Shown piece by piece: positions 8,711-62,363 of a stretch of 64,000 nt of DNA. Below the pieces are notes generated by a model that saw only the letters and a program-made list of their open reading frames with translations, was not told the origin of the DNA and did not search any database. Source of the DNA: Pedobacter boryungensis (lineage in GTDB: Bacteria; Bacteroidota; Bacteroidia; Sphingobacteriales; Sphingobacteriaceae). The position numbers and the translations under genes were made by a program. The stretch is taken from positions 868,001 through 932,000 of the forward strand of contig NZ_JABMKV010000002.1 in NCBI RefSeq assembly GCF_013204825.1, read 5' to 3'. Each line of letters starts with the position of its first letter. Position 1 is the first letter of the stretch.

Positions 8711-8742
8711 TAATGTAAAAAATTCCTGCGATAAATAAAGTC

Positions 8743-8818
8743 AGTCCTGCTTTATGCTAACTCTTTTTTTACAAAAAAGTATACCGCTTCAATCAGGGCT
8801 AAAAACTTAAAACAGCGC
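8743..8818. repeat. Dispersed intergenic palindromic element, copy 1
   Basis: The element runs from AGTCCTGC (8743-8750) through a T7/A6 inner stem (8763-8778) to CAGGGCT (8794-8800), and then AACAGCGC (8811-8818). AGTCCTG pairs with CAGGGCT with one wobble. The same order of blocks recurs at 62250-62363, so this is a repeat within the window. Confidence 0.7.
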
Positions 8819-28992: not shown

Positions 28993-29178
28993 ATGAAAGC
29001 AATTAAAGTTTTAATGATCGCCTTGGTAGCAGCATTTACAGTAAACACAGTAAGTGCGCAAACCACTCCAGCTAAACCAGCCGCAAAAACAGAAAAACCT
29101 GCAGCTAAACATGTGAAAAAAACACATAAAGGGCATAGAAAACATGCCGCTAAAAAAGTTAATGCAGTTAAAAAATAA
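28993..29178 (+). CDS. Small exported Ala/Lys/His-rich basic peptide (copy 1)
   Basis: The 61-residue product has a signal peptide MKAIKVLMIALVAAFTVNTVSAQ. The mature part consists almost only of Ala, Lys, Pro, Thr and His (TEKPAAKHVKKTHKGHRKHAAKK). Its signal peptide is almost identical to that of the next gene, and the 5' leader (CACTAAATCATAAAAAA before ATG) is shared too. The mature peptide would be about 38 residues and strongly positive. Possible roles are binding nucleic acid, lipopolysaccharide or cell wall outside the inner membrane; none can be shown. A hairpin terminator ends the unit. Confidence 0.75.
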   Translation: MKAIKVLMIALVAAFTVNTVSAQTTPAKPAAKTEKPAAKHVKKTHKGHRKHAAKKVNAVKK

Positions 29179-29343: not shown

Positions 29344-29553
29344 ATGAAAGCAATTAAAGTTCTAATGATCGCCCTAGTAGCAGCATTTACAGTTAACACA
29401 GTAAGTGCACAAACTGCACCAGCTAAAGCAGCTAAACAAACTGTAAAAGCAGCTAAACCAGCTAAAGTTGAGAAAAAAGCAGATACTACATCGGCAAAAA
29501 AAGCTGTTAAAAAAGCAAAAAAAGAAGCTAAAAAAGCAGCGACTAAAAAATAG
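29344..29553 (+). CDS. Small exported Ala/Lys-rich basic peptide (copy 2, paralogue)
   Basis: The 69-residue product has the same signal peptide as the gene 351 bp upstream (MKAIKVLMIALVAAFTVNTVSAQ). The tail differs, lacking His and rich in KA repeats (VKAAKPAKVEKKADTTSAKKAVKKAKKEAKKAATKK), with some resemblance to histone H1-like or AlgP-like Lys/Ala tails. The signal-peptide region is nearly identical at DNA level, but the mature parts have diverged and only the tails changed composition. It has its own terminator, so the two genes form a tandem duplication of complete units. Function unknown. Confidence 0.75.
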   Translation: MKAIKVLMIALVAAFTVNTVSAQTAPAKAAKQTVKAAKPAKVEKKADTTSAKKAVKKAKKEAKKAATKK

Positions 29554-30286: not shown

Positions 30287-30317
30287 TTGATTATCACAAA
30301 TTAAGTTCCTACTTTTG
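30287..30317 (+). promoter_or_regulatory. Promoter of the str operon (rpsL)
   Basis: TTG (30287-30289), a 20-nt spacer and TACTTTTG (30310-30317) make a full Bacteroidota promoter, followed by CAGTCCC. The leader to rpsL ATG 30398 is about 75 nt. Confidence 0.8.
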
Positions 30318-30320
30318 CAG

Positions 30321-30366
30321 TCCCTTAATGTGGCCTTGTTGTAGGCTGGCCATTATGGGAGTTTTT
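30321..30366 (+). promoter_or_regulatory. Attenuator-like hairpin in the rpsL leader
   Basis: TCCC (30321-30324) pairs with GGGA (30357-30360), TAAT with ATTA and GGCC with GGCC, making a stepped stem. It is followed by GTTTTT (30361-30366), like an intrinsic terminator. It lies directly after the predicted start site, so it could cut or regulate str operon transcription. Confidence 0.55.
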
Positions 30367-33432: not shown

Positions 33433-33466
33433 GATCCCTTGTTATTAATAGCTCTAACAAGGGATC
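33433..33466 (+). promoter_or_regulatory. Perfect 12-bp hairpin in the fusA-rpsJ gap
   Basis: GATCCCTTGTTA (33433-33444) and TAACAAGGGATC (33455-33466) flank a 10-nt loop. No T-run follows, so an RNA-processing or regulatory role is more likely than termination. Confidence 0.55.
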
Positions 33467-33481
33467 ATAATTAAAAATATA

Positions 33482-33787
33482 ATGAGCCAAAGAATTAGAA
33501 TCAAATTAAAATCTTACGATTATAACTTGGTAGATAAATCTGCTGAGAAAATCGTTAAAACTGTAAAACCTACGGGTGCAGTAGTTAGCGGGCCAATTCC
33601 GTTGCCAACAGAAAAGAAAATCTTCACTGTTTTGCGTTCACCACACGTAAACAAAAAAGCACGTGAGCAATTTCAATTATGTGCATATAAACGTCTTCTA
33701 GATATTTATAGCTCTAACTCTAAAACTGTTGATGCGTTGATGAAACTTGAATTACCTAGCGGTGTTGAAGTAGAAATCAAAGTTTAA
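33482..33787 (+). CDS. rpsJ: 30S ribosomal protein S10
   Basis: The 101-residue protein is S10 by [46 protein letters not shown] and the terminal [14 protein letters not shown]. It sits in the 30S head and doubles as NusE in antitermination. In most bacteria rpsJ is directly followed by rplC. Here it ends in a strong terminator 16 bp after its stop and is separated from rplC by 2.3 kb, so it behaves as the last gene of the str unit. Confidence 0.98.
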
Positions 33788-33802
33788 TGATTTTATAGAA
33801 TT

Positions 33803-33839
33803 AAAAAAAGACCCTTAGAATTTCTAAGGGTCTTTTTTT
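33803..33839. terminator. Strong bidirectional terminator after rpsJ
   Basis: AAAAAAAGACCCTTAGAA and TTCTAAGGGTCTTTTTTT form a nearly gapless 18-bp stem with A- and T-tracts. It ends rpsJ and the convergent coiled-coil gene. Confidence 0.92.
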
Positions 33840-33861
33840 ATGAATTATTTTTTGTGTTAAA

Positions 33862-34524
33862 TTACTTTCCTTTACTTTTCATTTCTTCAATGACATTGCG
33901 TTCATCTTGGAGCTCTCGTGCTAATTTACGTTGTTGTTCATTTGTTTTTACCTTATATGCTTGATATTCAGTAGAAATTTCATCGTAAAGTTGTGTTCTA
34001 TGCTTAGCTTCTAAAATGTTTTTTGCAGAACGAGCAATTACAATAAACAAAGATATAGCTAAAATGATGATGATAGACCAAACAATAATATTGTAAGTTC
34101 CTTTAGTAAAAGAAATACCTAAAAAAGCAATTTCATCAGCTTTGGCAGTTGTATCGTTTAAGGTGTTTTCTTTACCGCTAATTTCAGTTTTTAAACTTGA
34201 AATTTTTTTTTCTTGCTCAATAACCTTCGCTTTTGCGTTCTTTAACTCTGTGCGTTCTTTACGTAAGGTGTCAGTTACACTTTGCCAAACTGTTGATAAT
34301 CGATAAGGATTGATCAATTTATATCCATTTAAGCTTTTCGATCTAGACAACATAAATAAATATTGTCCTTTTAAACTCGGATCAGTGTTTTTAGCAGTGT
34401 CTAATGCCTTTGTGTAAACTCGTTGTGTTTTAACAGGTGTTTTAATTGGAGTTTGTGCCCAAATATTTTGAGCAAAGATTCCTAAAATTAGAATGGCAGT
34501 AATAGAAAGTAATCTTTGTTTCAT
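33862..34524 (-). CDS. Exported/membrane coiled-coil protein of unknown function
   Basis: From ATG 34524 the protein is 220 residues with a signal peptide (MKQRLLSITAILILGIFAQNIWAQ); a longer start at 34563 would hide that signal. A region FMLSRSKSLNGYKLINPYRLSTVWQSVTDTLRKER is followed by a heptad-like coiled coil (about 90-130) and a membrane span (YNIIVWSIIIILAISLFIVIA, about 145-165). A basic, charged cytoplasmic C-terminus with a second coiled coil follows. Similar Bacteroidota proteins are sometimes misnamed tRNA (guanine-N1)-methyltransferase; no methyltransferase motif is present. It lies between rpsJ and rplC on the opposite strand. Confidence 0.7.
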   Translation of the reverse strand: MKQRLLSITAILILGIFAQNIWAQTPIKTPVKTQRVYTKALDTAKNTDPSLKGQYLFMLSRSKSLNGYKLINPYRLSTVWQSVTDTLRKERTELKNAKAKVIEQEKKISSLKTEISGKENTLNDTTAKADEIAFLGISFTKGTYNIIVWSIIIILAISLFIVIARSAKNILEAKHRTQLYDEISTEYQAYKVKTNEQQRKLARELQDERNVIEEMKSKGK

Positions 34525-34704
34525 ATTAGTAATATCGTTGTTAACTTTAACAAGTATAATCAAAAAATATTGTGTTTACCTAATTTGCAGCACCTCGAAA
34601 TATACGCCTTATTTACTCTATTCATAAGCTTAAAGCCTATTAAGCACATCTTTTTGGTAGTTTACTTAATGCAAATTATTCTAGGTTAAGCGAATTAAGG
34701 CGGG

Positions 34705-34712
34705 TATATTTG
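34705..34712 (+). promoter_or_regulatory. -7 box of the TSUP transporter gene
   Basis: TATATTTG matches TAnnTTTG and is followed by 5 nt (CCAGC) before ATG 34718, predicting a leaderless or near-leaderless mRNA. Confidence 0.5.
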
Positions 34713-34717
34713 CCAGC

Positions 34718-35554
34718 ATGTCGGTATTGCTTTTTACCATTATTGTTTTAATTGGTGCTTTCCTTGCAGGATTATTGGGCTCCCTAACGGGTCTTGGCGG
34801 AGGTGTAATTATTATACCCTTGCTTACTTTGGGTTTAGGAGTTGATATTCATTATGCAATTGGTGCTTCAATCATCTCGGTCATCGCAACATCTTCAGGT
34901 TCTGCTGCCGCTTATGTGAAGGAAGGAATTACTAATGTAAGGATTGGGATGTTTTTAGAGATAGCAACAACAGCAAGTGCGATAGCTGGTGTAATCATCG
35001 CTACCTATATAAAAGCCGACTATATCATTGTTATTTTTGGCTTCATCTTATTGTTTTCTGCTTTTATGATGCTTCGCAAAAAAGTAGACCACTCTAATAA
35101 TGAAAAAACAAGTATTCTTGCTAATTACTTTAAATTAAATGGTAGTTATCCAACTGAAAATGGACCAAAACAATATGCAGTTCATCATGTTGTAGGCGGT
35201 TTTGCTATGATGTTTATTGCAGGTACGCTTTCAGGTCTTCTAGGGATTGGCTCAGGTGCACTAAAAGTAATAGGAATGGATAACATCATGAAAATACCTT
35301 TTAAGGTCTCCACTACTACTAGTAACTTCATGATTGGTGTTACGGCGTCAGCAAGTGCATTAGTTTACTTACATAAAGGACAAATCGATCCAGCTATTGC
35401 AATGCCAGTAACTATTGGAGTAATTACGGGAGCTACTATTGGTGCAAAAATTTTAATCAGGACTAAAACCGATAAATTGAAAGTAATATTTGCTATTGTG
35501 GTAACTTTCTTAGCCCTTCAAATGATTTATAAAGGATTAACAGGTGGAGCATGA
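34718..35554 (+). CDS. TSUP (TauE/SafE/YfcA) family membrane transporter
   Basis: The 278-residue protein has about eight hydrophobic segments and the two-fold repeated TSUP signature: LAGLLGSLTGLGGGVIIIPLL near the N-terminus and AGTLSGLLGIGSGALKVIGM in the second half, an inverted duplication typical of the family. TSUP proteins export sulfite, sulfonates or other small organosulfur or carboxylate anions; the substrate is not predictable here. It overlaps the DUF1634 gene by 4 nt (ATGA), a known pairing that suggests joint function. The pair is inserted between rpsJ and rplC. Confidence 0.92.
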   Translation: MSVLLFTIIVLIGAFLAGLLGSLTGLGGGVIIIPLLTLGLGVDIHYAIGASIISVIATSSGSAAAYVKEGITNVRIGMFLEIATTASAIAGVIIATYIKADYIIVIFGFILLFSAFMMLRKKVDHSNNEKTSILANYFKLNGSYPTENGPKQYAVHHVVGGFAMMFIAGTLSGLLGIGSGALKVIGMDNIMKIPFKVSTTTSNFMIGVTASASALVYLHKGQIDPAIAMPVTIGVITGATIGAKILIRTKTDKLKVIFAIVVTFLALQMIYKGLTGGA

Positions 35555-35946
35555 GTAGACAAATTAAACATTATTTAGGCGATAAAGATGTACAGGTTAT
35601 ACTAGGTACACTTTTGCGTGTAGGTGTAATAGTTTCTACTAGCGTTGTATTAATTGGTGGAATTATTTTTTTATTGAGCCATACTCATCAAGCTATTTCC
35701 TATACAGATTTTAAACCTGAAGAGGCAAAATTTTCTTCGGTAGCTGAAATATTTAAGGGGCTTAAAGCACTCGATGGGCTTGCGATTATCCAGTTTGGAG
35801 TTTTGCTGCTTATCTTTACGCCAATAGCCAGAGTAGTTTTTTCTATTTTCAGCTTCTTAATGGAAAAAGATTACATGTATGTACTTATTGGAATAATAGT
35901 ATTGTGTGTGATTATCACCAGTTTATACCTTGACGTGGCCCATTAG
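35551..35946 (+). CDS. DUF1634 membrane protein, partner of TSUP transporter
   Basis: The 131-residue protein has three hydrophobic spans (about 20-42, 72-96 and 106-128), matching DUF1634: VILGTLLRVGVIVSTSVVLIGG..., then LDGLAIIQFGVLLLIFTPIARVVFSIFSFLMEKD and YVLIGIIVLCVIITSLYL. DUF1634 genes commonly follow a TSUP gene, as here with a 4-nt overlap, so it probably acts as an accessory subunit. Its function is otherwise unknown. Confidence 0.88.
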   Translation: MSRQIKHYLGDKDVQVILGTLLRVGVIVSTSVVLIGGIIFLLSHTHQAISYTDFKPEEAKFSSVAEIFKGLKALDGLAIIQFGVLLLIFTPIARVVFSIFSFLMEKDYMYVLIGIIVLCVIITSLYLDVAH

Positions 35947-36020
35947 CTGTGTTTTTAGGCTATCTCATTGTGTGCTAGAAAAATAATTGAAATTATTTAC
36001 AATTATTTTTAGCTAACTAT

Positions 36021-36050
36021 TTGAAAATTAAGAATTCTTTCCTATTTTTG
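36021..36050 (+). promoter_or_regulatory. Promoter of the S10-spc unit (rplC)
   Basis: TTG (36021-36023), a 19-nt spacer and TATTTTTG (36043-36050), followed by CCGTCCC, form a full promoter. It gives rplC and downstream genes an independent start after the three-gene insert. Confidence 0.82.
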
Positions 36051-36076
36051 CCGTCCCTTAGCGGGGAATGTATATC

Positions 36077-36110
36077 CACCTTGAACGAAGCCCTACTGCT
36101 TCGATGGGTG
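36077..36110 (+). promoter_or_regulatory. Structured leader of rplC
   Basis: CACC (36077-36080) pairs with GGTG (36107-36110) and CGAAG (36086-36090) with CTTCG (36099-36103), leaving an 8-nt apical loop. It lies in the approximately 75-nt leader of rplC, where S10 operons often have an autoregulatory RNA. The regulator (L4 by analogy with E. coli) is inferred. Confidence 0.5.
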
Positions 36111-36128
36111 TTAAATTTAAAATAGAAA

Positions 36129-36746
36129 ATGTCAGGTATTATTGGAAAAAAAGTAGGAATGACCAGCATTTTTGATGCCGAAGGAAAAAATATTCCTTGT
36201 ACGGTGATCGAAGCTGGACCTTGTGTGGTAACACAAGTTAAGACCGAAGAGAAAGATGGTTACGTATCAGTTCAACTAGGATACGATGAAGCCAAAGCAA
36301 AAAACACTACCCAGCCTTTAAAAGGTCACTTTGCGAAAGCAAACACAACTCCAAAACGTAAATTGGTAGAATTTGAACAGTTTGAAGCATCACTTAGTTT
36401 AGGTGATACAGTTACTGTTGATATTTTTGCTGAAGGCGATTTTGTTGATGTTGTTGGTACTTCAAAAGGTAAAGGTTTTCAGGGTGTAGTAAAACGTCAC
36501 GGTTTTGGTGGTGTGGGTGGTCAAACTCACGGTCAACATAACAGATTGCGTGCTCCAGGTTCATTGGGTGCTGCATCTTATCCAGCTCGCGTATTTAAAG
36601 GAATGCGTATGGCAGGAAGAACTGGTGGAGACAGAGTGAAAATTCAAAACTTACAAGTATTGAAAGTTTATGCTGAGCAAAACCTAGTTGTAGTTAGTGG
36701 TTCCATTCCAGGAGCTAAAGGTTCTTACGTAATCTTAGATAAGTAA
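36129..36746 (+). CDS. rplC: 50S ribosomal protein L3
   Basis: The 205-residue product starts [19 protein letters not shown] and contains [23 protein letters not shown] followed by the long loop [24 protein letters not shown], the L3 finger reaching the peptidyl-transferase centre. L3 is an early assembly protein for the 50S subunit. It is the first gene of a long ribosomal run and has its own promoter. Confidence 0.98.
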
Positions 36747-62143: not shown

Positions 62144-62249
62144 GAGCTTTTTGTTTTTAGGGTTAATTTTTATCTGATTATAAAGCTATTTATTTTTAAT
62201 AGAGTTTACTATTTTCCGAAAAAGAAAGTAAGTATTTCATAGGAATCGT

Positions 62250-62363
62250 AGTCCTGCTTTGCGTTACAATCTTTTTTATATGTATCAGGCAAGTCAAAGG
62301 CCAAGCATCTGCAACAAAAAAGTATTTTCACTGCAATCAGGTTTAAATAACTCAAAACAGCGC
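62250..62363. repeat. Dispersed intergenic palindromic element, copy 2
   Basis: The element has AGTCCTGCTTT (62250-62260), TCTTTTTT, AAAAAAGTAT, CAATCAGG (62334-62341) and AACAGCGC (62356-62363), in the same order as at 8743-8818. This copy has about 35 extra nt in the middle. Confidence 0.7.

Follow-up and report, generated by a model that had tools for sequence, protein, structure and literature searches.

We analyzed a stretch of 64,000 nucleotides (nt) of Pedobacter boryungensis (contig NZ_JABMKV010000002.1, positions 868,001 to 932,000; hereafter the window), in which the S10 run of ribosomal protein genes, one of the most conserved gene orders in bacteria, is interrupted between rpsJ, encoding S10 (NusE), and rplC, encoding L3. 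Gene order in relatives indicates that the str-rpsJ-rplC run, the older arrangement, was broken between rpsJ and rplC inside the window's family. On comparative sequence grounds, we consider it probable that rpsJ is now an independently controlled gene ending the str unit, that rplC and the genes after it form a second unit, and that two small hairpins, one in front of each gene, act as ribosomal leaders.

We looked at the gene order in 80 named Bacteroidota loci found with the L3 of the window, 70 of which lie outside its family (L032-L041 were assigned to the family by identity, order and leader). Results showed that rpsJ is present in 63 of the 70 non-family loci, in 61 of them 20-542 bp upstream of rplC, while in the two others, from Hymenobacter (L077 and L096), the gap is 1.7 kb, apparently a separate split at the same seam. 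In both Hymenobacter loci a long-stemmed terminator-like hairpin follows rpsJ. In 7 of the 70 loci rpsJ was not found upstream of rplC over the sequence covered, and L042, L050, L064, L071 and L086 lack it within 9-10 kb. Since 61 of the 63 loci have the fused order and the outermost clade of the family has tight seams as well, this order is the older one, and the common arrangement in these loci appears to be str followed by rpsJ adjoining rplC, with some separate splits elsewhere. Contrary to the proposal of the initial annotation, rpsJ thus did not move into the str unit.

Both gene positions could be obtained for 172 of the 201 family genomes, some of them deduced from hairpin matches and accurate to some tens of bases. 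The two genes are less than 600 bp apart in 9 genomes and 2-36 kb apart in the same order and strand in 80; in 22 genomes they are distant or differ in order or strand (30 kb in one genome, 43 kb in another, at least 70 kb in the others), and in 61 they are on other contigs, which in draft assemblies does not necessarily mean distant. Within Pedobacter, the genus of the window, 35 of 36 genomes have 2.2-35.8 kb between rpsJ and rplC and one has them on other contigs. In g2, the listed coordinates put the genes 0.58-2.75 Mb apart in the 11 genomes that have both on one contig. A tree of 13 ribosomal proteins, from which the short loci L037 and L041 were left out, places the g86/g92/g102 group (support 0.87) outside the remaining family (support 0.97). 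Seams are about 75 bp in g92 (5 genomes); in g86 they are 290 and 342 bp, but also 10.4 and 12.5 kb, and g102 yielded no gap measure. In the main clade, a seam below 600 bp was seen in g87 only (2 of 4 genomes), and in g94, g98, g100 and g103 (one genome each) rpsJ is absent from the roughly 18 kb preceding rplC.

The two sides of the seam carry their own transcription signals. A scan of the whole window gave 4 terminator-like sites versus 5.8 in shuffles and 20 sigma-70 promoter-like sites versus 30.3; since the shuffles give more sites, the scan alone proves no terminator or promoter, and it is the conserved position that proves the terminator. The sigma-70 scan was dropped, as it gave fewer sites than shuffles and is unsuited to Bacteroidota. 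With a separate hairpin finder, compared with 600 shuffles, a terminator-like hairpin was found after rpsJ in 30 of the 30 genus loci showing this gene, beginning 18-25 nt past the last sense codon in 29 and at 74 nt in one. Its stem has at least 9 pairs in 29 of 30 loci, versus 1 of 600 shuffles (any stem: 16 of 600), so that the 18-bp terminator reported in the initial annotation stands. Such hairpins also follow rpsJ in 8 of 12 other family loci (not in L037, L175, L178 and L194) and in 23 of 62 non-family loci, namely in 0 of 27 with a gap below 60 bp and 23 of 35 with a larger gap.

On the rplC side, the elements TTTG and TATTTTTG were recognized by what we take to be the Bacteroidota promoter consensus. 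We counted the pattern TTTG-N17-23-TAnnTTTG upstream of rplC, using mononucleotide shuffles as controls, and found it in 64 of 66 distinct regions from the family, in 18 of 94 from outside it and in 4 of 1320 shuffles; the fresh rplC promoter proposed earlier is thus of Bacteroidota type and common to the family. Sixty-two of the 64 sit 72-79 nt before the ATG and two at 110 nt, and the two regions where the pattern was not seen are the tight seams of L194 and L037. Seams below 350 bp in g86 (L192) and g87 (L185) already possess both terminator and promoter; therefore, uncoupling can precede separation.

We also surveyed the gene content of the gap across 36 genus loci, of which 5 end before rpsJ. 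The order of an opposite-strand gene, a TSUP/DUF1634 pair and rplC was confirmed in the window by open reading frames (ORFs) and Pfam, and all three gap genes recur in every genus locus (36 of 36), the pair on the rplC side of the gap, not always adjoining rplC. By eye, the product of the minus-strand ORF shows a signal-like stretch at its N-terminus, a single membrane-like segment and parts resembling coiled coils; the TSUP and DUF1634 genes overlap by 4 nt. Other genes vary among these loci: a dehydrogenase-like gene (28 loci), an HD-domain protein (23), PorP/SprF-like proteins (16) and type IX-signal proteins (16). The window gap is smaller than most in the genus. Among 12 genomes searched, the dehydrogenase-like gene is present in 5, within the gap in G267 (a close relative), G282 and G122 (another genus) and elsewhere in G262 and G321; it was not found in the genome of the window, G257, G192, G312, G242, G213 and G284. 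From these gene contents, it seems more likely that the gap of the window was reduced than that it was newly inserted, separate gains being possible as well.

The initial annotation had considered that, if not conserved, the layout would mark a recent insertion. A recent mobile or foreign insertion in the strain of the window would fit with three genes breaking a run that most loci of the phylum keep tight. Yet this is hardly credible, since all 36 genus loci share these three genes, short seams in the main clade are limited to g87 and no mobile-element family was found in L170, the only locus scanned (10 gap proteins, six with Pfam families and four with none). The split is therefore common to relatives, as the alternative in the initial annotation, which linked it to regulation, had it, and an assembly error is ruled out, as separately assembled relatives have the same order. 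The constancy of the three genes and the position of the TSUP/DUF1634 pair could also mean that they are tied to ribosome supply and held in the gap by selection, all the more as loci of g3, g4, g83, g88 and g93 likewise have the minus-strand gene between rpsJ and rplC. We regard this as improbable: TSUP/DUF1634 was not found in 25 stretches from other genera, other genes come and go among the three, and Pfam reveals no ribosomal domain in them.

Beyond the content of the initial annotation, the comparison revealed two conserved hairpins (Table 1). The first lies between fusA and rpsJ, its last base 15 nt before the rpsJ start, and folds with -17.3 kcal/mol (z-score -6.46). The letters TAGCTCT occur within 170 nt upstream of rpsJ in 52 of 52 loci (rpsJ identity at least 94%), and in the 49 distinct sequences chosen by these letters for the alignment they are found at 30-37 nt, except in L273 (77) and L040 (132). 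Cells with changes on both sides of a pair number 134 versus 38.9 in shuffled alignments, and the covariation score is 0.666 versus 0.232; none of 500 shuffles reaches either value, and sliding the structure gives at most 0.239. AAUAGCUCU is fixed in the family and AATAGCTCT is invariant across the aligned family sequences, while the outermost pair is unpaired in 36 of 49 sequences and the third pair from outside in 23 of 49. A model of the hairpin matched 171 of 201 family genomes at an E-value of 0.001, in single copy except for two in G285 (7% contaminated). At 0.1 it matched 6 of 148 genomes of the phylum, all family members (G099 only at 0.02), and none of the 142 non-family genomes sampled. 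We compared the position of 118 matches for each of the two hairpin models, the genome searches giving more; for this model, 116 lie beside rpsJ within 12 nt, and those of G178 and G319 at 41 nt. In the genome of the window, each hairpin occurs once.

The second hairpin would head the rplC transcript and ends 18 nt before the rplC start, with an internal loop UGAA/AU and a terminal loop CCUACU. In an alignment of 54 distinct sequences chosen by TTGARCG (L192 and L197 of g86, which lack it, were left out), cells with both-side changes number 60 versus 21.4 and the covariation score is 0.234 versus 0.158, each reached by 0 of 500 shuffles, and 95% of cells are paired versus 37-51% when the structure is slid. 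The outer stem shows both-side changes in 4 of 5 pairs with 98.5% of cells paired, while the inner stem is nearly invariant in the main clade; g92 has a different inner stem with the same fold (z-score -3.53). The model matched 185 of 201 family genomes at 0.001, again in single copy except for two in G285, and at 0.1 it matched 6 of 148 genomes of the phylum, all family members, and 0 of the 142 non-family genomes sampled. All 118 matches compared lie beside rplC, within -3 to 4 nt. As the hairpin is also present inside the 75-76 bp seams of g92 (L194) and L037, where no promoter is visible, it did not necessarily arise with the split. The short 5' hairpin at the expected rplC transcript start has weaker support, with 84% of cells paired in its helix 1. 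We also looked for mimicry of 23S RNA by the core of the rplC hairpin: the best match on the 23S strand in a local alignment, near the 3' end, in what we take to be L3 territory, was not significant, 14 of 100 shuffles being as good.

Table 1. Features at the rpsJ/rplC seam of the window (positions count from the first letter of the window)
Feature	Position	Strand	Details
rpsJ leader hairpin	33433-33466	+	12-bp stem 33433-33444 / 33455-33466, loop UUAAUAGCUC 33445-33454
rpsJ (S10, NusE)	33482-33787	+	PF00338, 9.5e-36
Intrinsic terminator after rpsJ	33802-33840	+	18-pair stem, 3-nt loop, T run
Gap gene 1, ORF without Pfam family	33862-34563	-	in 36/36 genus loci
Gap gene 2, TSUP/TauE membrane transporter	34718-35554	+	PF01925, 4.1e-50; in 36/36 genus loci
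Gap gene 3, DUF1634 protein	35551-35946	+	PF07843, 2.3e-31; in 36/36 genus loci
Bacteroidota-type rplC promoter	36020-36050	+	TTTG 36020-36023, N19, TATTTTTG 36043-36050
Short 5' hairpin at expected rplC transcript start	36054-36067	+	arms 36054-36058 / 36063-36067
rplC leader hairpin	36077-36110	+	outer stem 36077-36081 / 36106-36110; inner stem 36086-36091 / 36098-36103
rplC (L3), first gene of separated S10 run	36129-36746	+	PF00297, 2.6e-13

Several results weigh against reading the hairpins as leaders. The number of rpsJ pairs with both-side changes (10 of 12, versus 8.9 in shuffles) is reached by 122 of 500 shuffles, that of rplC pairs by 15 of 500, and the pair-type count of the rplC hairpin is 13, below the 16.1 of the shuffles; moreover, the cell counts of both hairpins are inflated by related sequences. 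The rplC leader of the window folds modestly (z-score -2.12, with 5 of 200 shuffles as good). At 0.001 and with strict filters, the models missed the rpsJ hairpin in 30 of 201 family genomes, some of them good assemblies, and the rplC hairpin in 16 of 201, including all four of g86 and both of g89. Mimicry of 16S RNA by the rpsJ loop was not significant either in local alignment (reached by 174-197 of 200 shuffles). Taken together, both hairpins are conserved, covarying structures upstream of a ribosomal protein gene, with two of five covariation measures for rplC and one for rpsJ not clearly better than shuffles.

One could also suppose that the seam opened by chance and decayed neutrally, the promoter and terminator being ordinary ends of transcription units and the hairpins stabilizers or processing sites without feedback. 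This explanation, which we judge rather unlikely, would account for a gap filled by ordinary chromosomal genes in varying number and for the five non-family loci in which rpsJ is missing upstream of rplC, and a short 5' hairpin is also seen by eye at the rpsL transcript start. On the other hand, the loop and internal-loop letters (UUGA, CUAC and AAUAGCUCU) are conserved beyond the needs of a stabilizing stem, and each hairpin is found at one gene only in the 118 matches compared. The rpsL start itself (window 30310-30366) shows a promoter of Bacteroidota type together with a 5' region rich in hairpins which, by eye, is kept in the closest relatives only; no conserved 5' leader was seen across genera for rpsL by eye, unlike rpsJ and rplC.

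Both hairpins seem to be new types within a known kind, the ribosomal leaders, and apparently undescribed, as no Rfam 15 family matched either of them in the window at the gathering score and none appears in Table 1 of Eckert and Weinberg 2020 (PMC7247131). With E-values up to 10, Rfam gave only a microRNA match of 12 bits, lying over the rpsJ hairpin but on the other strand, and with E-values up to 1 it gave none over the hairpins of L275 and L212. In the part of PMC7247131 available to us, Table 1 lists L13, S4, S15 and S16 leaders in Bacteroidia or Flavobacteria and no Bacteroidota leader upstream of rpsJ or rplC; the sole rplC-rplD leader of that table comes from Archaeoglobi, and the text names an S10 leader of Firmicutes. 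Like those leaders, the hairpins of the window are covarying RNA structures upstream of ribosomal protein genes. In the partly available literature we found no report of an rpsJ or rplC leader in Bacteroidota; PMC9723704 refers to 64 structured 5' regions from a Flavobacterium, given in its supplement, and a leader listed there alone would have escaped us.

The S10 leader of E. coli precedes rpsJ. The window likewise has a structured candidate leader before rplC and rplD, but here the hairpin is small, lies after rpsJ and has no intrinsic attenuator, the 18 nt between hairpin and rplC containing no terminator. As far as the available part of PMC10931766 goes, the E. coli leader is a long 5' untranslated region with a Rho-independent terminator, regulated by L4 and controlling the operon with rplC and rplD, and Bacteroidota ribosomes do not use Shine-Dalgarno pairing.

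For rpsJ, the resemblance is to boxA. In the part available to us, Baniulyte et al. 2017 (PMC5725501) predict, from a gamma-proteobacterial search, boxA upstream of rpsJ in three genera and propose NusE autoregulation, S10 with NusB binding boxA; the word Bacteroidota is absent from the main text, as far as available. The pre-rpsJ hairpin of the window contains GCUCUWA, its loop and 3' arm resembling boxA up to GCUCU. In g86, g87, g92 and some other groups these read AGCUCUUA, in the genus of the window AGCUCUAA, AGCTCT being invariant and followed by WA, with UWA paired in the fold. Unlike the single-stranded boxA of gamma-proteobacteria (GYTCTTTAANA), the motif of the window is half paired in a covarying 12-bp hairpin and departs after GCTCT. 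Two observations count against boxA: the paired UWA swaps with its partner (UA in 36 and AU in 13 of 49 sequences), and neither GCTCT nor CTCTT was found in the 600 nt before 16S in the genome of the window, the nearest sequence by eye being GTTCATTAAAG. That the rpsJ hairpin is a boxA held in a hairpin, through which S10 (NusE) with NusB shuts off its own translation, is a tentative idea.

A pre-rpsJ hairpin of similar layout was found in 5 of 61 non-family loci (L048, L065, L068, L101 and L106), about 47-101 nt upstream of rpsJ and with a loop CGAATGACTC followed by TTA, as the family has a loop TTAATAGCTC followed by TWA; L104 has the same letters before rpsJ, but the finder picked another stem. 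A matching pre-rpsJ hairpin in Bacteroidales loci (10-nt loop CGAAUGACUC then UUA) would make boxA-hairpin control old in Bacteroidota and, if true, would explain how rpsJ could be cut from the S10 operon.

Putting these elements together, S10, perhaps with NusB via the boxA-like GCUCUWA of the loop and 3' arm, would bind the rpsJ hairpin and repress rpsJ translation, while L4 (or L3) would bind the rplC hairpin and repress rplC onward. Protein binding by both putative leaders is inferred; L4 is the first candidate for the rplC hairpin and L3 the second, because L4 regulates the S10 operon of E. coli. The rpsJ hairpin is intercistronic, co-transcription of fusA and rpsJ being assumed. Both hairpins would end where an initiating 30S subunit would sit, and control of initiation is the likelier mode for both; translational control is likelier than attenuation because the 15 and 18 nt after the hairpins leave no room for a terminator. 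With its own start, stop and feedback on each side, adjacency would no longer have mattered and the linkage could decay. Afterwards, gap genes may have come and gone, or the halves moved apart, the window representing a small form of the gap.

The same seam may be marked in other lineages. In 19 loci chosen by the pattern ATGTCC...AAAACGG, mostly Flavobacteriaceae by name where named, this element lies between rpsJ and rplC (L060:9863-9943, L063:9877-9958, L094:9881-9969 and 16 others), and in 16 of the 19 a T run after a terminator-like hairpin follows within 95 nt. No Rfam match lies over the element in L060, the one locus scanned. The element is a candidate attenuator leader of the S10 run in Flavobacteriaceae-type loci, and it seems that several lineages use the rpsJ/rplC seam as a regulatory border, each with its own RNA solution.

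Elsewhere in the window, two adjacent small ORFs (28993-29178 and 29344-29553) have identical first 24 residues and lysine/alanine-rich tails, likely a tandem duplication, and Flavo-1 RNA (RF01705) has two matches above the gathering score on the minus strand (62246-62348 and 8739-8804).

In conclusion, the family of the window offers a graded series from a tight rpsJ-rplC junction to genes megabases apart, along with regulatory elements that might allow the genes to tolerate separation. Both hairpins provide concrete candidates for regulators, in a phylum where ribosomes do without Shine-Dalgarno pairing. If true, S10-NusB feedback through the boxA-like element would connect both an antitermination factor and ribosomal protein supply with rRNA transcription.

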